64,000 nucleotides of DNA from an uncultured Bacilli bacterium (lineage in GTDB: Bacteria > Bacillota_I > Bacilli_A > RF39 > UBA660). Of the stretch, positions 2,163-56,876 are shown piece by piece. Each line of letters opens with the position of its first letter. The first letter of the stretch is position 1. The position numbers and the translations under genes are program-made. Under the pieces are notes generated by a model. That model was not told the DNA's origin. It was given only the letters and a program-made list of their open reading frames with translations, and made no database searches. The stretch lies in assembly GCA_947626275.1 (NCBI GenBank), contig CANQRL010000001.1, positions 62,001 to 126,000 on the forward strand. Direction: 5' to 3'.

Positions 2163-5100
2163 ATGAAAGAATATAATATTGGATTAGATATAGGAACGAA
2201 TTCTGTTGGATGGGCAGTAGTCTTAAAAGATTCATATAAAGTCATGAGAAAAGGAAATAAAGCCTTATGGGGAATTCGTCTTTTTGATGATGCGAATACT
2301 GCTGTTCAAACAAGAGGATATCGTAGTACACGTAGAAGAATGGATAGAAGAAAAGAAAGAATCCTTTTATTACGGGAAATATTTGCCGAGGAAATAGGCA
2401 AAGTAGATCCTCATTTTTTTGATAAGTTAGAAGAATCTTTCTATCATAATGAGGATAAAAAACATAAGCATTATCCGTTAACCAAAGAAGATAAACTTAT
2501 CTTGAATAGATTTAAAACCATTTATCATTTACGGAATCATATTATGGAATCAGAAAAAAAAGAAGATATCCGTCTTATTTATTTAGCTTTCCATCATATT
2601 ATTAAATACCGTGGTAATTTTCTTCATGAAGAAAATGATTTCAATGTAAAAAATATTGATATTGAAGGTGAACTAAAAAATACGTTTGAAGAAATTTTTT
2701 CTAGTTGCGATGAACTAAGCCAGGATTTAGCATCTCCAGAAGAAATGGATTTTGCTTCTATAGAAGAAATTTTAGATGAAAAAAGCAAGTCAGATAGAAG
2801 AAAAAAATTAGAACTTTATTTGAAAGATTTTAGTGGTGAATATCCAAAATTCGCAACAGAATTTTCTAAGGCAGTTGTTGGTAATAAGTTTTCGGCAGCG
2901 AAACTTTTCCATCTAGAATTAGAGCAAGATCAAAAGGACGTAGAAGTTTCTTTAGATGGAAGTTCTTTAGAAGATAAAGGAGAAGAACTAGATAAACTTT
3001 TAGGGGATAAAATTTCTGTATTAGAAACCATGAAATCCCTTTATGAAATGATTTATTTAAAGAATATTTTTAAAGGAAGAAAAGATACTAGTATTTCTCA
3101 CTTAATGATGGAAAGATATGAAATTCATAAACAGGATTTAAAAGATTTAAAAGACTTATTATCTTTAGATACTCCTATGAAAGGATGCGTTAAATCTAGT
3201 GCTTTTCACAAAGTCTTTAGAACGCGTAAACACGATAAAGACCTCTGCCTATATGAACAATATTTACATAATAAAATAACATTAGATGAGTTTGTAAATG
3301 AATTAAAGAAAGTTTTAAAAGAAGTCAAAGATACATTAATTTCAAATGGAGGAGAAAACTTATTCCATAAAGTAGAAGAACGAATGATGGAAGAAGACTA
3401 CATGCCACGAATTACTTCTATAGAAAATGGTAGTTTCCCATATCAACTCAATTTATCAGAATTAGAAAAAATGATTGAAAATCAAGGAAAGTATTATCCA
3501 TTTTTATTAGAAAAAGTAGGAAAAGATTATAAAATATCAAAACTTTTATCTTTCCGTATTCCATATTACGTTGGACCACTTATTGAAGATGAGAAACATC
3601 CCTTTGCTTGGATGAAAAGAAAGATTGAGAATGTGAAAATCACTCCTTATAATTTTGATGAGGTAGTTGATAAAGATGCTTCTGCTGAAAGATTTATTAC
3701 TAAGATGTTACGTTCTTGCAGTTATCTTTTAAAGGAAAAGGCAATGCCTGCAAACTCATTACTTTATTCTGAATATAAAGTTTTAAATGAATTAAAACAA
3801 ATCCGTATCAATGGACATTCCCTTACGGTAGAGATGCAACAAGAGATTATAGACGAATTCTTCCGGAAAACGCTAGGTACTTTAACAGATAAAAAGTTTA
3901 AAGAATATTTAAATCAAAATCGTAACTTTGATATGTACGGAGGAGATTTTAAAATTACTGGTTATTCAGCAGAAGAAAAATTTGCTAATACCTTAACTTC
4001 TTATATAGACTTTTATGGACCAGAGGGATTCTTTAAAGGAACCAATTTAACTGAAGAAGATGCCGAAACCATTATTCGTTGGATTACGATATTTGAAGAT
4101 AAAACGATTCTAAAAAGAAAAATAGAAATGGAATATCCTGTTTTAGTTCCTGTACTTCCTAAAATTTTGAAGAAACGCTATAGTGGTTGGAGTAATCTAT
4201 CCAAAAAATTATTGACAGAATTGCGCTACTTTGACCCAGAGGATTCTAACTACAAATCTATTATGGATTTAATGTGGGAGACAAGCGATAACTTCATGCA
4301 AATTTTAAATGATGAGAAGTATGGTTTTCAAGAAATGATTGCCAAAGAAAATGGGGTTTTAGAACAAACTAAATTAAATTATGATTTAGTAAAACAATTA
4401 ACGACTAGTCCAGCTACGAAAAGAGGAATTTGGCAAGCACTTCAAGTTGTAAAAGAAGTTACTGATTATATTGGATATGATCCTAGTAGTATTAGTATTG
4501 AATTTGAAAGAGGAGACGAAAAGAAAGGAAGAAAAGATAGTCGAAAAGATTATTTAAAGAAACTATATACAGCCAATAAAGATTTTATTCATGATTATCA
4601 ACGCCTTTCTCATGAGTTAGAGAATACCAGTGAGGATGAGTTAAAAAATAGTGAGAAACTATATTTATATTTCATCCAAGAGTCAAAAAGTCTATATTCG
4701 GGAACTCAACTTACTCTTGATGACTTAAAGGATTGTGAAGTAGATCATATTTTACCTAGAACCGCTATTAAAGATGATTCTATTGACAATAAGGCATTAG
4801 TTCTAAGTAAAGAGAATCGAGATAAAGCTGCTAACCTAGTACTTTTTCCTAAATGGCAAAGTTTATGTGAAGGTTGGTGGAAACATCTAGAAGATGTGAA
4901 ATTAATTTCTAATAAAAAATTTAGACGCTTAATGAGAAGACAGTTCAAAGAAGAAGATATAGAAGGATTCATCAATCGTCAACTTGTTGAAACAAGACAA
5001 ATTACGAAACATGTTGCAAATATCTTACAAGGACTTTATCCAAATTCTAAAATTAACTATATGCCCGCTGCTTTAGGACATAGTTACCGAGAAAAATTTG

Positions 5101-6185
5101 AACTATTCAAATTTCGTGATTTAAATGATTATCATCATGCCCATGATGCTTATTTAGTAGCTGTTTTAGGAGAATATAAAAGTTTCTGCAATTTAAAAGT
5201 TACTCTAGAAGATTTAAAAGAACTTAGTGAAAAGTTATGGGAAGAAGGAAAATATAAAGAATTACGATATGGCTATGTTATCAATAGTATCGACTCTTCC
5301 TTTCCACATTTTAATGCGAAAACAGGAGAGGTATTAGATATTGATTATTTTACAAAAACAGTAGCCGATCATTTATATCGTAATGATATTTTAGTAAGTA
5401 AGAAAACAGAAATTAGAGAAGGGGAGTTTTATCAACAAAATGCTTCTAAAAAAGGAGTAGGTACCATCCCATTCCATAAAGGATTAGATGTAAAACTTTA
5501 TGGAGGTTATACACGAGCTAACCCAAGTTATGCAATGGTAGTAAAATATACTAAAAAAGGCAAAAATTCACAAAGAATGATAGGATTACCTATGTACGTT
5601 TTATCACAGAAGGATGAAGATTTAACAAAAGAATATATTCGAAATCTTTTAAACTTAAAACCAGAAGATTCCATAGAATTAGTTGGAAAGAAAATACCTT
5701 TTTATACTTTATTAAATTGGAATGGTCAGATGGGTTATTTAGTTGGTTCTAGTGATACTGTAGAACTTTGTAATGCCAAAGAATTTCAACTAACAAAAGC
5801 AGAGTCGTTAGAATATAAATATATGTTAAATAGACTTTTAAATCATCGAAAGAGAATCATAGATGATGTTACCTATACACAAAAATTAAAAGATTTCCTT
5901 AAACTTCTTATTGCTAAAATTGAAAAAGAATATCTTCTTTATCAAAATTTAGTGTCAGAAATGAAAGAACTTTTCTTTCCAGTTATCGAAGAAGCAAAGA
6001 TAGAAACTATGGAAAACGTAATTATTCAAATGTTATATTTATTAAAATGCAACAGCACTTGTGCCAATCTAAAATTCTTAGGGGCTTCTACTGCTTTTGG
6101 AAAGAAAAATCATAGAATTATTGAAAATGCTACTATTATTCATCAATCCGTAACCGGTATAAGGGAACGAAGATATGAGTTTTAG
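2163..6185 (+). CDS. cas9: CRISPR-associated endonuclease Cas9 (type II-A)
   Basis: RNA-guided double-strand DNA nuclease, 1340 aa, close to the length of the S. pyogenes protein (1368). RuvC-I is at the N-terminus (IGLDIGTNSVGWA, D9), followed by the arginine-rich bridge helix (TRGYRSTRRRMDRRKER). RuvC-II has E780 in SIEFERGDE; the HNH domain has D861-H862 in CEVDHILPR and the KDDSIDNK/KENRDK asparagines; RuvC-III has H992 and D995 in YHHAHDAY. All nuclease residues are present. The C-terminal PAM-interacting part ends LGASTAFGKKNHRIIENATIIHQ, where SpCas9 has about twenty residues including R1333/R1335, so the PAM is probably not simple NGG. The start follows AAGGAGG at nine bases. The stop overlaps cas1 by 11 bp. 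Confidence 0.98.
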   Translation: MKEYNIGLDIGTNSVGWAVVLKDSYKVMRKGNKALWGIRLFDDANTAVQTRGYRSTRRRMDRRKERILLLREIFAEEIGKVDPHFFDKLEESFYHNEDKKHKHYPLTKEDKLILNRFKTIYHLRNHIMESEKKEDIRLIYLAFHHIIKYRGNFLHEENDFNVKNIDIEGELKNTFEEIFSSCDELSQDLASPEEMDFASIEEILDEKSKSDRRKKLELYLKDFSGEYPKFATEFSKAVVGNKFSAAKLFHLELEQDQKDVEVSLDGSSLEDKGEELDKLLGDKISVLETMKSLYEMIYLKNIFKGRKDTSISHLMMERYEIHKQDLKDLKDLLSLDTPMKGCVKSSAFHKVFRTRKHDKDLCLYEQYLHNKITLDEFVNELKKVLKEVKDTLISNGGENLFHKVEERMMEEDYMPRITSIENGSFPYQLNLSELEKMIENQGKYYPFLLEKVGKDYKISKLLSFRIPYYVGPLIEDEKHPFAWMKRKIENVKITPYNFDEVVDKDASAERFITKMLRSCSYLLKEKAMPANSLLYSEYKVLNELKQIRINGHSLTVEMQQEIIDEFFRKTLGTLTDKKFKEYLNQNRNFDMYGGDFKITGYSAEEKFANTLTSYIDFYGPEGFFKGTNLTEEDAETIIRWITIFEDKTILKRKIEMEYPVLVPVLPKILKKRYSGWSNLSKKLLTELRYFDPEDSNYKSIMDLMWETSDNFMQILNDEKYGFQEMIAKENGVLEQTKLNYDLVKQLTTSPATKRGIWQALQVVKEVTDYIGYDPSSISIEFERGDEKKGRKDSRKDYLKKLYTANKDFIHDYQRLSHELENTSEDELKNSEKLYLYFIQESKSLYSGTQLTLDDLKDCEVDHILPRTAIKDDSIDNKALVLSKENRDKAANLVLFPKWQSLCEGWWKHLEDVKLISNKKFRRLMRRQFKEEDIEGFINRQLVETRQITKHVANILQGLYPNSKINYMPAALGHSYREKFELFKFRDLNDYHHAHDAYLVAVLGEYKSFCNLKVTLEDLKELSEKLWEEGKYKELRYGYVINSIDSSFPHFNAKTGEVLDIDYFTKTVADHLYRNDILVSKKTEIREGEFYQQNASKKGVGTIPFHKGLDVKLYGGYTRANPSYAMVVKYTKKGKNSQRMIGLPMYVLSQKDEDLTKEYIRNLLNLKPEDSIELVGKKIPFYTLLNWNGQMGYLVGSSDTVELCNAKEFQLTKAESLEYKYMLNRLLNHRKRIIDDVTYTQKLKDFLKLLIAKIEKEYLLYQNLVSEMKELFFPVIEEAKIETMENVIIQMLYLLKCNSTCANLKFLGASTAFGKKNHRIIENATIIHQSVTGIRERRYEF

Positions 6186-7047
6186 AACTGTTGTGATTAC
6201 CAAACAATCTAGAATTAGTTATAAAAATAGATTTCTAGTAGTAAAGCAAGATATGGATGAAAAGTATATTCATTTATCAGAAATAGATACCATCATTGTA
6301 GATTCAATCTCGGTATCTATTTCTGCATATCTTTTAAAAGAATTGTCAGAAAATAAGATTAATATTATCTTCTGCGATGATAAGCATAATCCTTTTGGCG
6401 AATTAAAAAGTTTTTATTCAAGGCACAATTCTAGTAAGAAGATTTTAGAACAGTCGAAATGGACCAATGAGAAAAAAGAAAGTTTATGGATGAAAATAGT
6501 TCAAAATAAAATAGCTAATCAAGCCATTGTTTTGAATAAAATGAAGAAAGAAAACTACGATTTAGTTAGAAGTTATATTAGCGAAGTAAAAGCAGGGGAT
6601 AAAACCAATCGAGAAGGGCATGCTGCAAAAGTATATTTTAATTCTCTATTCGGAAAAAGTTTTGTAAGAAATTCCGGAGATAGCATTAATGCTGCTTTAA
6701 ATTATGGATATGCTATTTTACTATCTACTATCAATAAAGAAGTAATTAATAATGGTTATTTAACGCAACTTGGTATTCATCATAAAAATGAATTTAATGA
6801 ATTTAATCTTTCATGTGATTTGATGGAACCTTTTCGAATGATTATCGATTCATTTGTCTATTACAATCAAGGAAGAGATTTTGATACTTCTTATAAATTA
6901 GATATTGTAAATATTTTTAATAGTAAATACAAATACAGTGGAAAAAATTACGTATTAAAAGATCTTTTAAAGTTATATGTTAAAAATACATTAGACTGTA
7001 TGGAGAAAGGAACTGAATATAAGGAATTTATTATATATGAGGGATAA
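6175..7047 (+). CDS. cas1: CRISPR integrase Cas1 (type II)
   Basis: Cas1, with Cas2, integrates new spacers at the leader end of the array. The 290-aa length is normal for type II. The metal-binding residues are visible: E147 in NREGHAAKVYFNSLFG, H202/H203 in LGIHHKNEFNEFN, and D215/E218 in CDLMEPFR, the typical type II wording. The ATG lies inside the last codons of cas9 (11-bp overlap) and its stop overlaps cas2, so all four cas genes form one translationally coupled operon. No residues appear to be missing. Confidence 0.97.
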   Translation: MSFRTVVITKQSRISYKNRFLVVKQDMDEKYIHLSEIDTIIVDSISVSISAYLLKELSENKINIIFCDDKHNPFGELKSFYSRHNSSKKILEQSKWTNEKKESLWMKIVQNKIANQAIVLNKMKKENYDLVRSYISEVKAGDKTNREGHAAKVYFNSLFGKSFVRNSGDSINAALNYGYAILLSTINKEVINNGYLTQLGIHHKNEFNEFNLSCDLMEPFRMIIDSFVYYNQGRDFDTSYKLDIVNIFNSKYKYSGKNYVLKDLLKLYVKNTLDCMEKGTEYKEFIIYEG

Positions 7048-7357
7048 AGTTATGAGAACACTAGTCTTTTTTGACTTACCAAACATTTTCATGAAAGATA
7101 AAAGAAATTATTTAAAGTTTAGAAAATTTCTATTGAACGAAGGATTCATTATGCTTCAAGAATCTGTATATTCTAAGATTACTTTAAACTCACAACAATG
7201 CCAATTATTAATTGAAAGAGTCCGAAAGAATGCTCCTCAAAAAGGTATCATTCAAGTTTTAAATGTTACTGAGAAGCAATATGCCCAGATAGAATATATT
7301 ATAGGCGAACCTAATAGTAAAATTATTGATAATGAAGATAGGTTGATTGTACTATGA
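7037..7357 (+). CDS. cas2: CRISPR adaptation protein Cas2
   Basis: A 106-aa ferredoxin-fold protein that dimerises between two Cas1 dimers in the spacer-integration complex. The N-terminus MRDKVMRTLVFFDLPN has the conserved aspartate (D13). I kept the first ATG (7037) because MRDKVMRTLVFFDLP aligns without gaps to Cas2 starts of the MRYEALRLLCFFDLP kind in streptococcal type II-A systems; the second ATG (7052), preceded by GAGGGA, is an alternative. It overlaps cas1 by 11 bp and csn2 by 4 bp (ATGA). Confidence 0.95.
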   Translation: MRDKVMRTLVFFDLPNIFMKDKRNYLKFRKFLLNEGFIMLQESVYSKITLNSQQCQLLIERVRKNAPQKGIIQVLNVTEKQYAQIEYIIGEPNSKIIDNEDRLIVL

Positions 7358-8025
7358 AATTAAAGATTATATTTATAGAACAAGATATTATGATATCAGA
7401 TGATATTGTCCAAAGTATTGAAGTTGAAAATAAGAAACAATTTTATAGATTAGTAAGTGGCATTTACCAATTAGAAAACGGAGAAAAACTAGAAGATTTT
7501 CAATTTTATAGTGAAGAGGGAAAAGAAACAAATCCTTCTATTAAAATTATAAGTGACTATTTTTCCTTTGAAATAGATAGTAAAAAGACAATAAATGAAT
7601 TGTATAAATATATTGAATCTTCTATAGAAGAAGACCAACTACAGGAATTAACTAGGTCATATCAAAAAATCTATAAGTCCTTACAAAAAATTTTAGGTAA
7701 TATTGATCTTTCTTTATCAATTCAAGAAGATTTTGACGTAGAATCTTTGTTAAAAATGGTAAGGGTTTCTATTCAACATCAGGAAGATCTTTTAAATCAG
7801 TTATTCTTATTAATAGACGTAGAACGATTACTTAAGATCCATGATGTAATTTTTCTTGTAAATTTAAAACAATATTTAAGTAAAGATGAACTATTAGAAC
7901 TTTATAAATATGCGATTTATAATAAAATAAAAATTATTTTATTAGATAGTCAACCATACGGTATAGGATTAGAATTAGAAAGAAAGTTAGTAATTGATGA
8001 AAATCTAAATGAATTTGTGCTATAA
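7354..8025 (+). CDS. csn2: Csn2 adaptation protein (type II-A marker)
   Basis: Csn2 forms a tetrameric ring on DNA ends and is needed for spacer acquisition in type II-A systems; its presence defines the subtype. This is the short form (223 aa). The N-terminal half (MKLKIIFIEQDIMISDDIV...) and the C-terminal segment VERLLKIHDVIFLVNLKQYLSKDELLELYKYA...IILLDSQPY match the family pattern of a degenerate P-loop-like fold with a helical lid. The start overlaps cas2 by 4 bp. The stop codon is part of a TATAAT sequence at 8021-8026 that leads into the CRISPR leader. Confidence 0.93.
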   Translation: MKLKIIFIEQDIMISDDIVQSIEVENKKQFYRLVSGIYQLENGEKLEDFQFYSEEGKETNPSIKIISDYFSFEIDSKKTINELYKYIESSIEEDQLQELTRSYQKIYKSLQKILGNIDLSLSIQEDFDVESLLKMVRVSIQHQEDLLNQLFLLIDVERLLKIHDVIFLVNLKQYLSKDELLELYKYAIYNKIKIILLDSQPYGIGLELERKLVIDENLNEFVL

Positions 8026-8106
8026 TGAATATACGATGTCATATAATTTTACCATTCAAAATTAGTTATCTCTATTACGCTAATTTATCATAGAACTGTA
8101 TTTGAG
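8026..8106 (+). promoter_or_regulatory. CRISPR leader with leader-anchoring sequence ATTTGAG
   Basis: 81 bp between csn2 and the first repeat. It ends in ATTTGAG (8100-8106), the leader-anchoring sequence that directs Cas1-Cas2-Csn2-Cas9 integration in streptococcal type II-A arrays. TATAAT occurs at 8021-8026 and 8042-8047 as possible -10 boxes for the pre-crRNA; neither has a good -35. The leader also holds fragments complementary to the repeat: GATGTCATA (8035-8043), ACCATTCAA (8051-8059) and TCATAGAACT (8088-8097). The last is the exact inverse of bases 6-15 of repeat 1. This fixes array polarity: the newest spacer is next to csn2. Confidence 0.85.
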
Positions 8107-10254
8107 GTTTTAGTTCTATGACATCTTGAATGGTATTGAAACTTTTTTCATAATCTTTTAACCTCTTTTCTTGTTTTAGTTCTATGACATCTTGAATGGT
8201 ATTGAAACAAGTTCTGTAATATCTTAAATACTCAATATGTTTTAGTTCTATGACATCTTGAATGGTATTGAAACTATCGCTCATCGTAAAAATATTTACA
8301 TAGCGTTTTAGTTCTATGACATCTTGAATGGTATTGAAACATTCATATCTATTGCTAGTACTGGAACTGTGTTTTAGTTCTATGATATCTTGAATGGTAT
8401 TGAAACACCAAACTCAGAATAATATTGAATAAAGCTGTTTTAGTTCTATGACATCTTGAATGGTATTGAAACAGGATTGAGGTGTTTTATGTATTACGTT
8501 CCGTTTTAGTTCTATGACATCTTGAATGGTATTGAAACCTTATAATTCTGTTACTGGCTCTACTACAGGTTTTAGTTCTATGACATCTTGAATGGTATTG
8601 AAACTTACAACTGTAGTACTGATTACATAATGGGGTTTTAGTTCTATGACATCTTGAATGGTATTGAAACTTTCTATTGCCTCTCGTCGAGGTGGCAGAA
8701 GTTTTAGTTCTATGACATCTTGAATGGTATTGAAACGACTTTTTTACAAGCCAAATTCTCTTCTTAGTTTTAGTTCTATGACATCTTGAATGGTATTGAA
8801 ACCTTGATTTACATTTAGATTTTGACGATAAAGTTTTAGTTCTATGACATCTTGAATGGTATTGAAACTGAATTTATGCTTACATTTGGTGCAAAAATGT
8901 TTTAGTTCTATGACATCTTGAATGGTATTGAAACAATGTCATAAGGGTCAATAGATGGGTCGCCGTTTTAGTTCTATGACATCTTGAATGGTATTGAAAC
9001 TAAGGTAACTCTTAGTGGTAAGGATTTTTCGTTTTAGTTCTATGACATCTTGAATGGTATTGAAACCAAAAATAATCCAGAAACAAAATATGCTGTGTTT
9101 TAGTTCTATGACATCTTGAATGGTATTGAAACAATGACTTATGTAACGAGCAGATACAACGCGTTTTAGTTCTATGACATCTTGAATGGTATTGAAACTA
9201 TGATGACAATGGTGAGAGTACCAGGAGAGTTTTAGTTCTATGACATCTTGAATGGTATTGAAACTGGAACATTTGATTAGGAAGTGATAATATGGTTTTA
9301 GTTCTATGACATCTTGAATGGTATTGAAACCACTAGTCAAAATTGAAAAACAAAATAGGAGTTTTAGTTCTATGACATCTTGAATGGTATTGAAACTAGA
9401 CAATTTAGTGGCTACCGAGGTAACAAGTTTTAGTTCTATGACATCTTGAATGGTATTGAAACCAAGAATTCGTATAGGCTCTCTCATCTCTAGTTTTAGT
9501 TCTATGACATCTTGAATGGTATTGAAACTGGGTTTCATCTTCTTCATAAAGTACTAGGGTTTTAGTTCTATGACATCTTGAATGGTATTGAAACTAAAAA
9601 TAAAATCTAACCATCTACCAATTAGTTTTAGTTCTATGACATCTTGAATGGTATTGAAACACACCACTATCCTCGTTATACCATACCCCCGTTTTAGTTC
9701 TATGACATCTTGAATGGTATTGAAACAGACTGTTCAGTCCTAGGATTATCTAAAGAGTTTTAGTTCTATGACATCTTGAATGGTATTGAAACTGACCAAA
9801 TAAGAGGGAACGATAATAATACGTTTTAGTTCTATGACATCTTGAATGGTATTGAAACTTCATAAATAACTTAAAAGGAATAACAACAGTTTTAGTTCTA
9901 TGACATCTTGAATGGTATTGAAACTGATTTTTCAGTTGGTAATTATCATCAAGTGTTTTAGTTCTATGACATCTTGAATGGTATTGAAACTTATCAAAAA
10001 TGTAAATTATACATTTTTCAGTTTTAGTTCTATGACATCTTGAATGGTATTGAAACACAGTAATTACAACTGTCGTATCTACTATCGTTTTAGTTCTATG
10101 ACATCTTGAATGGTATTGAAACATTTAAAAAATTTAAATATAACAACTGGAAGTTTTAGTTCTATGACATCTTGAATGGTATTGAAACTATTCCAGCCAT
10201 CATGGGAATTAGTCCATTGTTTTAATTCTATAACACATTTGTCACATTAAAATA
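8107..10254 (+). CRISPR. Type II-A CRISPR array, 33 repeats and 32 spacers
   Basis: Repeats of 36 bp (starting GTTTTAGTTCTATG, ending GGTATTGAAAC) alternate with 30-bp spacers on an exact 66-bp period: repeat n starts at 8107 + 66(n-1). I checked that the last, degenerate repeat (10219-10254, GTTTTAATTCTATAACAC...) falls exactly on this grid, giving 32 spacers, all 30 bp. Repeat 5 (8371-8406) has one change, C to T at its base 16; repeats 1-32 otherwise look uniform. The decayed final repeat marks the old end of the array. No spacer repeats another that I could see, and I saw no spacer match elsewhere in the window. Confidence 0.99.
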
Positions 10255-21985: not shown

Positions 21986-22504
21986 ATGAAGAAGAAATTG
22001 TTGTTATGCCTATTTTGTCTTTTTCTTCTCTGTGGATGTCAAAAAGAAGAAGAAGAAGCACCTGTATCCAATGAAGAGGAAGAAACAGGACCTATTATCA
22101 CTTATGAAGATGTGACCGTTGAAAATCTAACAGATTTTCTTATGATTAGTTCTTATATTTCAACAGGAATGCCAGATTGTTCCAATCCTCATGATGCTTG
22201 TACTAGTAGAGGATACTTTAAAAACTATAATTTAACACCAAAATACAATAATGTAGAATTTGAAAACGTAGAAGTATCTTTAGAACTTCAAATGACCTGT
22301 TATACCGATAAAAATTATAATAAGACGAACGAGGTTCGCGTACATCTAGATGATCTTGTTTTAACGGGAGACGGTTCCTATGATACCGGAAACGCTGATT
22401 TACTTCCTTTTGGAAATAACCAAAATTGTTATTTTGAAAAAACCAGTCAAATTGTTCCTGTAAAAGTAAATGGAAAAATTAAAATTACAGAATATCCCGA
22501 ATAA
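21986..22504 (+). CDS. Lipoprotein of unknown function
   Basis: A 172-aa secreted protein with a lipoprotein signal peptide: a lysine-rich start, hydrophobic LLLCLFCLFLL and lipobox LCGC, giving a diacylated cysteine at about residue 18. An acidic linker (QKEEEEAP...EEEETGP) follows. The globular part contains four more cysteines (PDCSNPHDACTS, MTCYTD, NQNCYF), probably two disulfides. I do not recognise the domain. The gene is divergent from xerD, with TATAAT at 21954-21959 as its likely -10, and ends at a strong terminator. Confidence 0.75.
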   Translation: MKKKLLLCLFCLFLLCGCQKEEEEAPVSNEEEETGPIITYEDVTVENLTDFLMISSYISTGMPDCSNPHDACTSRGYFKNYNLTPKYNNVEFENVEVSLELQMTCYTDKNYNKTNEVRVHLDDLVLTGDGSYDTGNADLLPFGNNQNCYFEKTSQIVPVKVNGKIKITEYPE

Positions 22505-41525: not shown

Positions 41526-41554
41526 AAAGAAAAAGTATGCAACTGCATACTTTT
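41526..41554 (-). terminator. Intrinsic terminator of the repeat-protein gene
   Basis: An 11-bp stem AAAAGTATGCA/TGCATACTTTT with a 2-nt gap between the arms followed by T's; its outer pairs overlap the stop codon. Confidence 0.75.
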
Positions 41555-44500
41555 AACTTGCTTTCGCAAAGGTAATATCTAATTCTTCTGGTAAATCTTC
41601 TACATAACCATCATCTTTAAAATAGAATTTTACATGAATGGTAACATGATAATCCGTTAAGTCCTTATTAGAAATGGTAGATATTTGTGGTTTGTAATCG
41701 CCTGTTACCTGTTGCATAGCCATTACAATACCTTCAGTTGGATTGATACGTTCAAATTCTTTCTGTCCTGCTACCGTATTATTTGAAATATAGTAAGTTT
41801 CTGATTTACCTGATTTACCATCTTTTGATGCACTGAAGGAAACCTCTAACCTATCAATAAACTCGATATCTTTTAACATATCAATAGCTGTATTGGTTCC
41901 AAGCTGAACAAAAGTTGAACCAAGAACAAGTTCATCATTTGTATACTTGTAAACAACCTTTCCGTTTTTAACATCTGATATGTCTACTTGATAATGTATA
42001 TGATTTTGATTTTCATTATTTCTTGCAAACATTTCTAGAATTGGATTCATTTGCTCATCAAATTCTTCTTTTGAAACAGCGCCTAAACTATTAAGCTTTA
42101 ATGTATAAGTAAGTTCATCTTTTCCTTCCTTAGTAAGAGCTACATCTTTATTTAATTTAATTGTAACAGTTAGTTCTTTATCATCCCATAAAATAACTTT
42201 CTTATTCATTATAGCCGCTGAAGCCAATTGACCGGTTTCACCAATCAATAAAGCCGCAACCTTGTTAACATACATTGTTTGTGACTGAGATGTACCATTC
42301 TCTACATAACACATTTCAGTACCATCATAATTAATACAAATGTCTAAAATTTCATCTTCCTTACCAGCCATTTGCAAAGATTGTAAGCGGCTTGCAAAAC
42401 TATTAAACGATGTAAATCCAAGCTTTTGCTCTTCATCATGATCAATGTTTACAAGGACAGATTTGTTTAATTCATTGACTTCAGTTTCAAAAGGTAATTG
42501 GTTATTAGGATCTAGATAGTCTAAACCATCAGTTAATAAACTATCAATATACGTTAAAGTAATTTCTTTTACAAAGACAGCCTCTAAAGTGAGGTCTCCT
42601 GTTATGCCAGGCTCTATTTCAGTTATAGTCTCATCGATATCATCTTTTACTTTCCATCCTACAAATACTTTTCCTTCTTGTGTTGCTTTTGGTAATTTCA
42701 TTCCTTCAATAGTATATTTGTTTTTTATGTTACATTCTTCACAAGAAGCATCTCCATATTCATAAGTGATATCATATTCAATAATAGTAAATTTAGCTGT
42801 TAAATTTAAATCTTTGTGATAATCAGATCCGTTGAATGATTTGACAGTATCTTCCCCATCGTTAATAATCCATCCTTCAAAAGTATAACCTGTTTTTGTT
42901 GCTTTTGGTAATGTTACCGTTTCATCTTCTACGGTATAAGTAGATGGAGTACAATCTTTTCTATTACATTTTTCATCATAAGTGATTGTATAGTTATAGG
43001 CAGTAGCAGAAACTGTTAATTCTTTTGCACTAGCTGGCATTGTATATTTATTACCTGTTACATCTTCACTCCAAGTTGCATTTTCATAACCTACTTTTAA
43101 AGCAGCTTCAAGAGTTACTTCTTCTCCGTAATAATGCATATTTTCTTCTGGAATCGTATCATTCTTAGAAGCTGTTGCACTTTCAATACCTTTACCTGGT
43201 GTAACTGTTAAGCTAAATTTATTTCTCTCATAGTAATATTTAAGAGTAGCTTGTCCATCCTCGGTAATCGTAATATCTTCATGGGTTGGTTCTTTTAATC
43301 CACCATCTTGAAGTCCTGTTTTTAAATTATCCGTTAAATCATCATCTGTTAAAGTGAAATTAGGTTTTGTTCCTACTCTTCCTTTTAAAGAGTCTTTTTC
43401 AATTGTTTTTTCAAGGTTATATGTTCCCTTAGTATCCATTAAATAGAGTTCTACTTTATAAGAAGCAATAACTTCTTCCCAAGAAGCGGTTAGTGTTAAT
43501 TCTCCCATTGTTCCTTTAGGAAGTTTTGTTACGTTACCAGTAAGGTTCTCTGAAGTCCATCCTAAGAATTTATATCCTAGTCTAGTTGGAGTAGGAAGAC
43601 TTACTTCATCTTCGATTGTATAAGTTTTATCTTGACAATCTTCACATTCCGCATCATCTTCTAACGTAAAGTGAATTGTGTAAGTAATTGGCGTAAAACT
43701 TGCCTTTAACTCTAAATTGTCTAAGTATTTAGATCCATCAAAAGAGGTTATCGCTTCTTCTTCCTCATTAATAATCCATCCATTGAAAGTATATCCTTCT
43801 TTCGCTAAAGTTGGAAGTTTTACTTCTTTATCTTCTACCGTATAAGTAGATGGAGTACAATCTTTTCCATCACATTGCTCATCATAAGTAATGGTATATT
43901 TAATTGGCGTAAAGCTTGCTTTTAACTCTAAATCTTCTAAGTATTTAGAACTTTCAAAAGAAGTTACTGCTGCTTCTTCCTCATTAATAATCCATCCATT
44001 AAAAGTATATCCTTCCTTAGATAAAGTTGGAAGTTTTACTTCTTTATTTTCGATAGTATAACTTGATGGGGTACAATCTCCTCCACCGCACTTCTCATCA
44101 TAAGTAATGGTATAGGTATTGGCTTCCCAATTTGCGGTAATCATTAAATTACCTGTCGTACCTTTTTGAATAACGCCATCAAAAGAGTCTTCTTCGATTG
44201 TCCAACCAGTAAAAGTATATCCTACTCTCGTTGGATCTGATAAGACAACTTCCTCTTCGGTATTATAACTTTCTGGATTCTTTCCACTACCACCATTTAA
44301 CGCATACGTAATCGTATATTCTTTTAATTCAGTCGTAGCGGTTAAAGTAGTATTATTATTGATAGTATAAGTAAATGCCGCATTTACTTGCTCATTGCTC
44401 CAATGAGCAAAGTCGTAACCATCCTTTAGGTTAGCAATTACTTTTACTTTCGTTCCATAATAATAGGTTCCATCTCCTTCAAGAGATTCTATTCCGTTAT

Positions 44501-45287
44501 CTCCTTTTAGAGTAAGTTTGTATTTATTTCTTACATAGTAGTATTGTACAGTTGTTTCTCCCTCTTCCACAGTTACGGTTTTTCTTGCAGGACTAGTAAA
44601 TCCTGGATAACTTTTTACAGAAGGAGTAACTTCACTACCTTCGTTAGCGCTAAAGACCTCTACCTTTTCTGGTCTAGTAGGATATTCGCCATCAAGTCCC
44701 ATGAGATAGTGTTCTACCTGGTAATCTACTTTCTTAATTTTTTCCCATTTCGCTTCAATAGTGGCATCCTCTTTGACACCTGATTCAAAATCATAAGGTT
44801 CAGAGCCAACATACCATCCTTTAAAGATATAACCTTCCCTTGTTGGGGTCTCAGGTTCTTCTATTTTCTCGTCATGTTTCACTTCTTGGGTGGTATTATT
44901 TCCCATACCATCTTGAATGGTAATAGAATATTGGTTTTCTTCAAAACGAGCTTCTAGTTTCATACCATCTGTAATGGTACCAGAATGAAAGTCAAATTCT
45001 TTCCCATCAACATACCATCCTATAAAGGTATACCCTTCCTTAACAGGATCTTTTGGCTTTACTATTTCGCCAAGATTATGGACATTTTCTAAACGGTATT
45101 CTTTTCCATCTACCATAAAGGTAACGGCATAATCTTTTCGTTGACAGAATGTTACTAGTAAAATAATAAGTACAATTAGAAAAACAAAAACGACGCCAAT
45201 TTTAATCATTTTTTCTCGTTGCGAATTTTGTTCTTCTTTTGTTTCTTCTATTTTTTTGCTCTTCTGATCTTTTGGTTTTTGAGCCAT
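41553..45287 (-). CDS. Membrane-anchored InlB-B-repeat surface protein
   Basis: A 1244-aa protein. After a charged N-terminus a single membrane helix (about residues 28-47, KIGVVFVFLIVLIILLVTFC) anchors it with the rest outside. Eight Listeria-Bacteroides (InlB B) repeats are marked by GY.F.GW motifs (GYTFIGW, GYIFKGW, GYTFTGW, GYTFNGW twice, GYKFLGW, GYTFEGW, GKVFVGW). Two MucBP-like units (VDYQVEHYLMGLDGEYPT..., ASYKVELYLMDTKGTYNL...) lie between them. Five repeats contain a cysteine pair (CGGGDC, CDGKDC, CEDC, CNRKDC, CEEC). The last 300 residues are a non-repeat domain. There is no LPXTG motif. It has its own promoter and terminator. A role in adhesion is inferred. Confidence 0.87.
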   Translation of the reverse strand: MAQKPKDQKSKKIEETKEEQNSQREKMIKIGVVFVFLIVLIILLVTFCQRKDYAVTFMVDGKEYRLENVHNLGEIVKPKDPVKEGYTFIGWYVDGKEFDFHSGTITDGMKLEARFEENQYSITIQDGMGNNTTQEVKHDEKIEEPETPTREGYIFKGWYVGSEPYDFESGVKEDATIEAKWEKIKKVDYQVEHYLMGLDGEYPTRPEKVEVFSANEGSEVTPSVKSYPGFTSPARKTVTVEEGETTVQYYYVRNKYKLTLKGDNGIESLEGDGTYYYGTKVKVIANLKDGYDFAHWSNEQVNAAFTYTINNNTTLTATTELKEYTITYALNGGSGKNPESYNTEEEVVLSDPTRVGYTFTGWTIEEDSFDGVIQKGTTGNLMITANWEANTYTITYDEKCGGGDCTPSSYTIENKEVKLPTLSKEGYTFNGWIINEEEAAVTSFESSKYLEDLELKASFTPIKYTITYDEQCDGKDCTPSTYTVEDKEVKLPTLAKEGYTFNGWIINEEEEAITSFDGSKYLDNLELKASFTPITYTIHFTLEDDAECEDCQDKTYTIEDEVSLPTPTRLGYKFLGWTSENLTGNVTKLPKGTMGELTLTASWEEVIASYKVELYLMDTKGTYNLEKTIEKDSLKGRVGTKPNFTLTDDDLTDNLKTGLQDGGLKEPTHEDITITEDGQATLKYYYERNKFSLTVTPGKGIESATASKNDTIPEENMHYYGEEVTLEAALKVGYENATWSEDVTGNKYTMPASAKELTVSATAYNYTITYDEKCNRKDCTPSTYTVEDETVTLPKATKTGYTFEGWIINDGEDTVKSFNGSDYHKDLNLTAKFTIIEYDITYEYGDASCEECNIKNKYTIEGMKLPKATQEGKVFVGWKVKDDIDETITEIEPGITGDLTLEAVFVKEITLTYIDSLLTDGLDYLDPNNQLPFETEVNELNKSVLVNIDHDEEQKLGFTSFNSFASRLQSLQMAGKEDEILDICINYDGTEMCYVENGTSQSQTMYVNKVAALLIGETGQLASAAIMNKKVILWDDKELTVTIKLNKDVALTKEGKDELTYTLKLNSLGAVSKEEFDEQMNPILEMFARNNENQNHIHYQVDISDVKNGKVVYKYTNDELVLGSTFVQLGTNTAIDMLKDIEFIDRLEVSFSASKDGKSGKSETYYISNNTVAGQKEFERINPTEGIVMAMQQVTGDYKPQISTISNKDLTDYHVTIHVKFYFKDDGYVEDLPEELDITFAKAS

Positions 45288-54442: not shown

Positions 54443-54471
54443 AAAAAAGGAATTAACAGTTAATTCCTTTT
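54443..54471 (-). terminator. Intrinsic terminator of secDF
   Basis: A 12-bp perfect stem AAAAGGAATTAA/TTAATTCCTTTT with a 3-nt loop; the stop TAA lies in the 3' arm. Confidence 0.8.
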
Positions 54472-56876
54472 ACTTTTAATTCTTCAACAGTTTCCTTATC
54501 TTCTACTTCATACCATTTTTTCTTCTCTGGTTTTCCTACTCTTCTCTTCTCGAGTAAATACCATAGATGAAGCGCTAAGAAGAGAGAAGAATACGTACCG
54601 GCAATCAAACCGATTAATAACGCATAGTTGAAGTTAATAATCTCGTGAGATCCTAAGAAGATAAGAGATATAACCGGAAGTAATGTCGTAATCGAAGTAA
54701 GTAAACTTCTAGATAATACTTCTTTTAGACTGACATCGACTAAGTTTTGCAACTCGGCTGTTGTTTTTATTTTACCGTGGTAAAGTTTTTCTTTATTCTC
54801 TCGAATTCTATCGAAAGCAACAATGGTGTTGTTGATAGAATATCCAATGATAGATAGGATAGCGGCAATAAAGATACTCGTGACTTCTAACTTTAATAAG
54901 CTGAAGGCAATTACAACAATTAAGCAGTCATGCATTAACGCAAATACAGAACTTACTCCATAACTGAATGTAAAACGAAGTGTTACATAAATGATTAAGC
55001 CGATAAGCGCTAAAGCCAAAGACCAAATCGCATTTTCAAGGAGTTGTTTTTTAACGATATTTGATACGGCACCAACACTAGCTGTTGCTCCATCATATTT
55101 TGCAAAGTAAGTATCAATCTTATCGTTATCGCTTGCTTCAAAGACATCTGTAACCGTTATATAAACGGTATGATCATCGATTTGTTCAGAAGCATCTAAA
55201 TGATAGCCTAAAGATTCTATTTCCTTCGCTACCACATCTTTATTTAAATCGACATTGGCTTGAAGAGAGATACTAGAACCACCCTTAAAATCAATTCCTA
55301 AATTAAATCCATTCATAAATACATATACAGTACCAACAATCAATACCAAAAGAGATACTGCAAATAGACGTGGATTCCATTTGGTGAAAGAGAATTTTTC
55401 TAGACGACTCTTCTTATTTAAATCCCCAATACCAATAAAGGCTGTTAAATGACGATCGAATGCTCCACTTTGAACAAATTTCTTCAATAAGAAACGGACA
55501 AAACATACCATGATTAAGAAAGTAACTAATATACTAATTAAAAGCATAGTAGCAAATCCCTTAACGCTGCTTTCTCCAAACCAGAAGAGGATAAAAGCCG
55601 CAATCAAGGTCGTAATATTCGCATCGAAGATAGAAGAGAAGGAATTCTTGTTTCCTCTTGCGAATGCTTCTTCTAAGGTGTATTTTGCTCTTAATTCTTC
55701 TTTGATACGAGTAAAACTAATGACACTGGCATCGACTGCCATACCAATACCGATAACAACAGCGGCAATAGATGGTAAGGTAAGTCTTCCACCAATTAAA
55801 TTAAAGATTAGGAATACCAAAACAGTATACGCTAAAATACCAACACTGGTAATAAAACCACTAAAGCGATAAACAAGGATTAAAAGAAGCATAATGGCGA
55901 TAATCCCTACGACTCCTGCTAAGAAAGTTTTCTCTAGGGCGTCTTCTCCAAAAGAGGCATTGACCGTCCGAGAAGAAATCTCCTCTAATTTAGTAGGTAA
56001 ACTACCAGAATTGATAAGTTCTGCTAAATCTTCTGCTTCTTCTTGGGTGAAGTTACCCGTTAGGCGAACATTATTCGTCGTTAATTCATCTTGAATATAG
56101 GCATAAGAGATACATCTAGAACTTCCTCCGGTTCCACACTGTTCTCTTTGTTCAGAGAATTTATCTCCTTCTTCCCAGTCTAACCAAATAACCATTGGTT
56201 CATTAGCGGCTCTTAAGACCTCTGTCTTTTCGTGGAAAGTATCGATATCAGCGATATCTAAAAGAAGATAATACGTTCCTACTTTATCCTCATCACGAGC
56301 GACTTTTACAGATCCAGCCCGTAATACCTTAGAATCCATAATGAGTTCATCACTACTATTTCTAAAAGTCAAATTCGCCATTTGACTCAAGGTACTCTTC
56401 GCTTCTTTTTCATCGGTAACACCCGCTAATTGAACACGAATATTATTTCCTTCAATCGAAATTTCTGGTTCACTGACTCCTAATATATCAATACGCTTTA
56501 AAATGATGCTGTAAGTATTCGTAACCATATCCTGTGTTACTTTACTACCATCTGTACTATTTACTTTGTAAAGAATTTCAAAACCACCCTGTAAATCTAG
56601 ACCAAACTTAGTTGCTTTCAAAACAGGGAATAAAGCAACAACCATAATAGCGACGATAAGAATCGTTGTCACGATAGAAAGAGCAAGTGTCTTTCGTTGC
56701 GCTTTTTTCTTTCGCGTATCTTTTGCTGCTTGTTTACTAGATATTTTTCTAGTAGGTTCTTCTTTTTTTGTTTCTTCTTTTTCTACTTTATTTACCTTTT
56801 CTTCTTTTACTGGCTTTGTTTCTTTTTTCACGGGTGCGACTGTTTTCGCTACCTTTGTTTTCTTTTTCTTTGCCAT
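54453..56876 (-). CDS. secDF: Fused protein translocase subunit SecDF
   Basis: An 807-aa twelve-helix membrane protein that uses the proton gradient to pull secreted proteins across. The SecD half opens with ATKFGLDLQGGFEILYKV, with a periplasmic P1 region and GIGMAVDASVISFTRIKEEL; the SecF half opens at NGFNLGIDFKGGSSISLQ and has ILSIIGYSINNTIVAFDRIRE. Fusion of SecD and SecF is usual in Bacillus relatives. An unusual lysine/glutamate-rich cytosolic tail of about 60 residues precedes the first helix. Good ribosome site AGGTGATAAT. comN is upstream in the same run. Confidence 0.95.
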   Translation of the reverse strand: MAKKKKTKVAKTVAPVKKETKPVKEEKVNKVEKEETKKEEPTRKISSKQAAKDTRKKKAQRKTLALSIVTTILIVAIMVVALFPVLKATKFGLDLQGGFEILYKVNSTDGSKVTQDMVTNTYSIILKRIDILGVSEPEISIEGNNIRVQLAGVTDEKEAKSTLSQMANLTFRNSSDELIMDSKVLRAGSVKVARDEDKVGTYYLLLDIADIDTFHEKTEVLRAANEPMVIWLDWEEGDKFSEQREQCGTGGSSRCISYAYIQDELTTNNVRLTGNFTQEEAEDLAELINSGSLPTKLEEISSRTVNASFGEDALEKTFLAGVVGIIAIMLLLILVYRFSGFITSVGILAYTVLVFLIFNLIGGRLTLPSIAAVVIGIGMAVDASVISFTRIKEELRAKYTLEEAFARGNKNSFSSIFDANITTLIAAFILFWFGESSVKGFATMLLISILVTFLIMVCFVRFLLKKFVQSGAFDRHLTAFIGIGDLNKKSRLEKFSFTKWNPRLFAVSLLVLIVGTVYVFMNGFNLGIDFKGGSSISLQANVDLNKDVVAKEIESLGYHLDASEQIDDHTVYITVTDVFEASDNDKIDTYFAKYDGATASVGAVSNIVKKQLLENAIWSLALALIGLIIYVTLRFTFSYGVSSVFALMHDCLIVVIAFSLLKLEVTSIFIAAILSIIGYSINNTIVAFDRIRENKEKLYHGKIKTTAELQNLVDVSLKEVLSRSLLTSITTLLPVISLIFLGSHEIINFNYALLIGLIAGTYSSLFLALHLWYLLEKRRVGKPEKKKWYEVEDKETVEELKVKGINC

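Follow-up and report, generated by a model that had tools for sequence, protein, structure and literature searches.

The stretch of DNA analysed here (the window) comprises 64,000 nucleotides of contig CANQRL010000001.1, positions 62,001 to 126,000, from an uncultured Bacilli bacterium whose source is probably the gut. On its minus strand an open reading frame (ORF) encodes a 1244-residue protein, P0001, hereafter the stalk protein, which carries cysteine (Cys) pairs in surface repeats of the InlB type (Table 1). A Lys/Arg-rich N-terminus is followed by one membrane helix (residues ~28-47), the InlB-type repeats and a C-terminal region of ~340 residues. In Pfam searches the protein scored 252.7 bits against PF09479, the InlB B-repeat (cut-off 27), over nine stretches, with one additional PF18998 stretch, while cutting the repeats by hand gives eight. 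The YxVEHYLMGxDG unit, which no tool matched, is presumably MucBP-like, as is a second unit within residues 608-760. The full models of internalins of the InlA/InlH type were not reached (103.5 bits against a cut-off of 1600, and 100.3 against 1050), and no leucine-rich-repeat family was found by Pfam at E 0.01. A Zfx_Zfy_act assignment to residues 413-474 was rejected at 18.1 bits (cut-off 25).

The stalk protein contains 13 Cys: Cys48 at the end of the helix, and 12 in the ectodomain that form six close pairs. Five of these (400/405, 472/477, 548/551, 774/779 and 849/852) lie within a repeat unit, after its first strand and before its 'YT(I/V)E' strand, so that the sequence and the repeat alignment confirm the claim of the first-pass annotation that a pair recurs at the same place in five repeats. 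Its figure of five out of eight holds for the hand-cut count, but it missed the sixth pair, 984/993, which is in the C-terminal domain and has the spacing C-x8-C; of the 'CxC-to-CxxxxC-type' spacing it described, CxxxxC occurs in three repeats and CxxC in two, and CxC in none. Each of the 12 ectodomain Cys has a partner no more than nine residues away. Chance placement was rejected, as none of 200,000 random placements equalled this pairing (maximum 11), and the feature is therefore real and non-random.

Table 1. Position of the stalk gene and its parts in the window, and of thioredoxin-fold genes at other loci of the genome (aa, amino acids of the encoded protein).
Feature	Coordinates	Strand	Basis
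Surface stalk gene, 1244 aa	41553..45287	-	ORF and Pfam
N-terminal membrane helix, aa 28-47, after Lys/Arg-rich N-terminus	45147..45206	-	Sequence; single hydrophobic segment
Cys48 codon, directly after membrane helix	45144-45146	-	Sequence
InlB-type repeat, aa 53-115, without Cys	44943..45131	-	Pfam and alignment
InlB-type repeat, aa 120-181, without Cys	44745..44930	-	Pfam and alignment
YxVEHYLMGxDG unit, then divergent InlB repeat (PF18998, aa 263-318); aa 189-318	44334..44723	-	Pfam and alignment
InlB-type repeat, aa 324-387, without Cys	44127..44318	-	Pfam and alignment
InlB-type repeat, aa 392-459, CGGGDC (Cys400/405, 44073-44090)	43911..44114	-	Alignment and model
InlB-type repeat, aa 464-531, CDGKDC (Cys472/477, 43857-43874)	43695..43898	-	Alignment and model
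InlB-type repeat, aa 536-603, CEDC (Cys548/551, 43635-43646)	43479..43682	-	Alignment and model
Second, presumably MucBP-like unit, with a divergent InlB-like unit recognized by eye; without Cys; aa 608-760	43008..43466	-	Sequence
InlB-type repeat, aa 766-833, CNRKDC (Cys774/779, 42951-42968)	42789..42992	-	Alignment
InlB-type repeat, aa 838-905, CEEC (Cys849/852, 42732-42743)	42573..42776	-	Alignment
C-terminal α/β region, aa 906-1244, no Pfam family; predicted Cys984/993 hairpin, 42309-42338	41556..42572	-	Pfam, homology, weak model
Thioredoxin operon: three membrane-anchored thioredoxin-fold proteins, tandem domains	L202 (G000 C15) 3288-6460		
CPWC protein, putatively thioredoxin-like: N-terminal helix, terminal Cys pair	L217 13231-13971 = G000 C1:33231-33971		

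Sortase substrates carry an LPXTG-type motif, a C-terminal hydrophobic stretch and a positive tail. The C-terminus of the stalk protein, LPEELDITFAKAS, displays no LPXTG-type sorting signal, and a simple hydrophobicity rule finds a single hydrophobic segment, which is N-terminal. An LPXTG anchor was rejected on these two grounds, although the genome of the bacterium has five sortase matches, and the earlier statements that a sortase motif is missing and that a membrane helix is the anchor are both upheld by the sequence. In lipoproteins the Cys that ends the signal helix is preceded by a lipobox. The residues before Cys48 are VTF, and at this place homologues from loci L065 and L066 have, by eye, LSSC and LVSC, respectively. 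Because Phe precedes Cys48 where these homologues have lipobox-like sequences, an uncleaved N-terminal helix appears more likely than a lipoprotein form.

AlphaFold2 was supplied with residues 388-606, which span three Cys-bearing repeats, and with 60 homologous triple repeats. The resulting model has a predicted local distance difference test (pLDDT) score of 93.6, and its Cys 13/18, 85/90 and 161/164 are located in the β1-β2 connection as assigned by DSSP. Modelling of a repeat, proposed in the first-pass annotation as a check on whether the paired Cys are adjacent, thus places both members of each pair in one short loop. The repeat model matches the InlB B-repeat 2y5p_C (Z 7.0, 2.6 Å over 69 residues) and a Treponema sialidase module (Z 7.4), with SUMO-like rows at ~4; in its fold the model corresponds to the InlB B-repeat β-grasp. 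In the model of the C-terminal domain, a two-residue Asp-Gly turn links strands 76-83 and 86-91 and sets residue 80 (Cys984) opposite residue 89 (Cys993), and these Cys are predicted to be a cross-strand pair of a hairpin. The model has no good structural match (best Z 5.3, with several Clostridioides difficile S-layer rows in the top ten). The domain has a homologue in L066 (25% identity, E 6e-15 by BLAST; 96.7% probability by profile comparison). Within the genus set of 12 genomes (79-95% complete; the bacterium's own is G000), the 11 others gave no match, and phmmer on the gathered ORFs matched only the domain itself.

A first scan of genome contigs with the whole stalk protein found no relative. 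Homologues of its N-terminal part occur in three loci of its own genome (62% identity over residues 1-392, 55% over 1-393 and 49% over 4-334) and in G009 (55% over 1-372). The top-scoring named relatives among the matches listed are metagenome-assembled genomes (MAGs) of 'uncultured Bacilli bacterium' named 'Lapin', which suggests a rabbit; the genome of the window may belong to this set of gut Bacilli. A search for aspS covered ten of the 12 genus genomes, and in the eight congeners where the adjacent place could be read (G001-G008) the stalk gene is absent from it, so that there is no positional orthologue to compare. The neighbour of aspS in G001, G004, G005, G006, G007 and G008 is a DUF5684-like gene with no InlB protein between; in G002 and G003 it is a shorter gene related to the DUF5684-like one, judging by eye from its start, and the G009 contig ends at aspS.

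To follow the pair through sampled repeats we defined a tight pair as C-x2..4-C within the first 22 residues of a repeat, the named loci being the best 80 among the matches listed in the scan and hence a sample. Tight pairs are found in 10 of 160 repeats from own and congener loci (five being those of the stalk protein) and in 3 of 66 from the 'Lapin' loci L065-L070 (L070, which has no tight pair, is counted in two groups). They occur in 1 of 859 repeats from the 73 other named loci among these best 80, in none of 172 from viral loci and in none of 102 from other family and class loci; outside the genus and 'Lapin' loci the total is thus 1 in 1,133 sampled repeats. Any Cys at all is seen in 110, and at least two in 23, of 937 repeats from the named genome loci of the best-scoring list, in keeping with the earlier remark that InlB B-repeats rarely carry Cys. 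Beyond the stalk protein, eight repeats in seven proteins of genus and 'Lapin' MAGs have the pair at the same place: two in the own genome (C12, CDNC; C9, CADC), one each in G009 (CEDC), G005 (CEDC), G002 (CEGC) and L065 (CTNC), and two in one protein of L066 (CKDC in both). A second pair site follows the GW core in long paralogues of G000, G009 and L066 (CSDC, CTDC, CKDC, CDDC), and pairs stand at other places of the repeat elsewhere, for example in L082, L084 and L114. Two own paralogues (L047) and one L066 protein also contain CNGLAC (C-x4-C; GCNGLAC[ST]P) in their C-terminal domain, and in L049 (G000 C9) a long N run lies upstream of the further InlB protein with the CADC repeat. Among the titles and abstract openings listed in searches of open PubMed Central (PMC) papers, none mentions Cys pairs in InlB repeats, or surface proteins of this organism group.

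The stalk protein may be a membrane-anchored extracellular array of β-grasp repeats with loop-stapling local disulfides, followed by an α/β domain, an account to which we give an even chance. The InlB-type units would form a stalk that presents the C-terminal α/β domain outside the membrane, most likely, judging from the family, as an adhesin or envelope spacer. The β1-β2 pair of five units would most likely be bonded as a short-range disulfide, stapling the loop, and the sixth pair would most likely staple the hairpin of the C-terminal domain. Disulfides fit best because the loop Cys come paired (of 200 lineage repeats 13 have two, five of them in the stalk protein, and two have one), share one short loop of the model, and the sixth pair is predicted to be cross-strand. 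The stalk thus has a lineage-specific and probably disulfide-stapled form of the InlB B-repeat, whose unit and fold are otherwise ordinary.

The first-pass annotation had left disulfides and metal binding side by side; the paired Cys in one short modelled loop favour the former, and metal binding is the less likely half. The CxxC and CxxxxC loops could bind a soft metal (zinc, cadmium or copper), singly or shared between repeats or molecules. CxxC resembles zinc knuckles, and 12 of the lineage's 13 tight pairs have Asp, Glu or Asn directly before the second Cys (by eye), which drift would not produce. However, each unit offers only two thiols and the loops have no His in common, single His residues being present in the first strand of repeat 536 and near the end of repeat 766. 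Loop length varies from two to four residues, and the predicted cross-strand arrangement of the sixth pair is disulfide geometry. Metal coordination is unlikely, even as the foremost of the alternatives to disulfide stapling.

A number of observations weigh against disulfide stapling. Three of the five Cys-bearing repeats (at 392, 464 and 766) are close copies of one another, those at 536 and 838 being divergent in the alignment, so the five are not independent events. Most lineage repeats (185 of 200) have no loop Cys. Local pLDDT, in blocks of ten residues, is 97 at the CxxC loop and lowest at the two CxxxxC loops (78 and 75). The model of the C-terminal domain is weak (pLDDT 63.9, six sequences), and the Cys984/993 pair is absent from the L066 homologue. 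Neither an oxidant nor a path for electrons was identified, in searches that did not extend to DsbB-type proteins. Finally, genome-wide Cys statistics give weak support for disulfides. An excess of even Cys numbers among exported proteins is a mark of oxidative folding according to PMC12453122. In rough sets, for which a simple hydrophobicity criterion selected the exported proteins and a greedy procedure the ORFs, Cys numbers in a first genome count were even for 18 exported ectodomains and odd for 8, and 60 of 104 Cys were close-paired against 17.4 expected; cytosolic proteins divided into 65 even and 66 odd. Without InlB proteins the figures were 17 even and 7 odd, and close-paired Cys numbered 28 where shuffling gave an expectation of 13.8 and at most 30. 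This count was inflated because the sample included loci chosen for InlB or thioredoxin genes. For the window and eleven other 20-kb stretches there were 12 even and 7 odd (p 0.18), and 32 close-paired Cys against 13.7 expected, mostly from the stalk protein. Removing that protein left 20 against 12.1 (reached by 26 of 1000 shuffles), and the eleven stretches alone gave 16 against 11.0 (94 of 1000). The congener G008, which has the same thioredoxin operon, displayed no excess (12 against 14.4; 14 even, 11 odd), and close pairs of cytosolic proteins, among which zinc proteins are common, also exceeded shuffles (168 against 117), a point that speaks for metal binding as well. G044, with a DsbA match, showed a close-pair excess (23 against 5.5; 12 even, 11 odd), and G043, without one, did not (4 against 3.2; 3 even, 11 odd); the ratios of exported to cytosolic Cys density were 0.69 (G000, a biased sample), 0.56 (G008), 0.28 (G043) and 0.48 (G044). 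As the genome-wide argument is weak, the case for disulfides rests on the repeats themselves.

These statistics, the near-copy repeats and the absence of the gene from its place in all eight readable congeners would also suit a pair without selected role, one Cys-bearing repeat having been copied within a weakly constrained array. Against such copying, paired Cys recur at this place in repeats of seven further proteins, loops with a lone Cys are rare (2 of 15 Cys-bearing loops), and these proteins contain further close pairs elsewhere (CNGLAC, CTFDKDC, CSDC). We consider a role-free pair improbable, and rank it second to metal binding among the alternatives.

If local disulfides form in the stalk, we infer that their formation, proofreading or maintenance falls to extracytoplasmic thioredoxin-fold proteins. 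In a search for thiol oxidases, suggested in the first-pass annotation, DsbA (PF01323), VKOR (PF07884) and CcdA/DsbD (PF02683) were each without a match in the 12 genus genomes at E 0.001, whereas control genomes matched (8, 3 and 10 of 14, respectively), and helix-bearing thioredoxin-fold proteins are present instead. A thioredoxin search of ten genus genomes returned divergent matches that form a three-gene operon, followed by genes that we take to be trpS, rplM and rpsI. In G000 the first protein (336 residues) has CGWC, the second (277 residues) CEFC and CDYC, and the third (429 residues) a zinc ribbon at the N-terminus, a membrane helix and, in its last thioredoxin domain, CTYC. All score above the PF00085 cut-off of 23.5 bits (38.8, 41.9 and 25.1). 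As each has a single N-terminal helix, the thioredoxin domains would lie outside the membrane. Across the five genomes compared, CxYC is invariant both in the third protein and in domain two of the second protein, whose first CxxC persists in four of them. The third protein is full length in all 12 genus genomes; in a class-wide draw of 247 genomes a full-length match was confined to the own genome, and its last thioredoxin domain alone was matched in 11 further genomes of the same family (E 1e-12).

Another protein combines a CPWC site and a Cys pair at its extreme C-terminus (for example NYCDEACE, TYCDDAC and NACSDCNK) with an N-terminal helix. It was matched in 11 of the 12 genus genomes, with a second copy in G005; site and terminal pair are both present in all 11 sequences compared, one per genome. 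It is below all Pfam cut-offs, its only match being to glutaredoxin (17.6 against 22.9 bits), and PF00085 (23.5) is not reached, but a thioredoxin-like protein is suggested by the CPWC together with a Pro further on and by weak matches to NCBIfam models. In G006 and G007 it starts, by eye, with a lipoprotein-like signal, which supports an extracytoplasmic place. The second and third operon proteins of G000 (43.3 and 34.9) and the CPWC protein (28.0) fall far short of the PedC/BrcD model (TIGR01295, cut-off 120 bits), and the first operon protein is not among the matches listed.

Both thioredoxin-like sets are probably exported, and may serve the stalk. It is also conceivable that the pairs are redox-active or thiol-presenting surface groups (a sensor, an electron relay or a site of covalent docking) and not structural bonds, as the genus has a conserved thioredoxin-fold set able to act on them. 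The repeats, however, are modelled as InlB β-grasp units and not as the thioredoxin fold that would tune a CxxC, and a redox-active role is the least probable of the alternatives. A broader proposal is that the genus folds exported Cys-paired surface proteins by an oxidative pathway of its own, without DsbA, VKOR or CcdA, in which the operon and the CPWC protein act on clients that include stapled stalks, and the terminal Cys pair could shuttle electrons. This is doubtful. Among the titles and abstract openings listed in searches of open PMC papers, none mentions this thioredoxin arrangement and none has the word CPWC.

The thioredoxin set is a more interesting lead than the loop pair. According to PMC12453122, obligate anaerobes tend to exclude Cys from exported proteins. 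The bacterium studied here, which we infer to be an anaerobe, belongs to a lineage with paired Cys in surface repeats, with no match to three standard disulfide families and with conserved, probably exported thioredoxin-fold proteins. Defined candidate enzymes and a defined substrate make disulfide formation in such bacteria testable, and the stapled repeat could serve as a redox-switchable protein module.

Other Cys-bearing proteins were noticed in passing. SecDF (window 54453-56876, minus strand) has a C-x7-C pair, CGTGGSSRC, in its P1-domain region, and a putative lipoprotein, recognized by eye (21986-22504, plus strand; no Pfam match at E 0.01), contains CSNPHDAC and further Cys. Two genes at L219 (6299-7215, minus strand), possible further disulfide clients, look pilin-like by eye, and the first of them has two close Cys pairs. 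Window positions 2163-10124 hold a Cas9-like protein with its neighbours and an array whose repeats read FNTIQDVIELK in an ORF, together presumably a type II CRISPR-Cas locus.

The stalk protein shares with the Listeria InlB B-repeat (PF09479; PDB 2y5p, 7nms and 7pv9) the β-grasp repeat, the GYxFxGW core and a place in a surface protein. It differs in the β1-β2 pair of five repeats, the aligned 2y5p segment being free of Cys, and in the N-terminal membrane helix. InlB as a whole is not known to have a Cys pair in the β1-β2 connection. Mobiluncus and Actinomyces are Actinobacteria. In the giant adhesin of Mobiluncus mulieris and in Actinomyces FimP/FimA, as described in PMC10619420, surface repeats likewise have a disulfide linking adjacent strands (Cys6887-Cys6895), but the domains are immunoglobulin-like with ester and isopeptide bonds, in contrast to the β-grasp units of the stalk protein, which comes from a probable member of the Bacilli. 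Etrx1 and Etrx2 of Streptococcus pneumoniae are also surface-exposed thioredoxin-fold proteins, and lipoproteins, of a Firmicute; their redox partner is MsrAB2 according to PMC3914529, whereas here CcdA/DsbD had no match and the Msr family was not searched for. Streptococci, staphylococci and clostridia have DsbA-like oxidases for which no partner is known (PMC12453122). These SdbA/DsbA-like oxidases and PedC/BrcD, the bacteriocin-maturation disulfide isomerase (TIGR01295), likewise combine a thioredoxin fold with CxxC, and PedC/BrcD is among the nearest NCBIfam models for parts of the thioredoxin set. Unlike PedC/BrcD and the SdbA/DsbA-like oxidases, the proteins reported here have tandem thioredoxin domains, a zinc ribbon on one and a C-terminal Cys pair on another.

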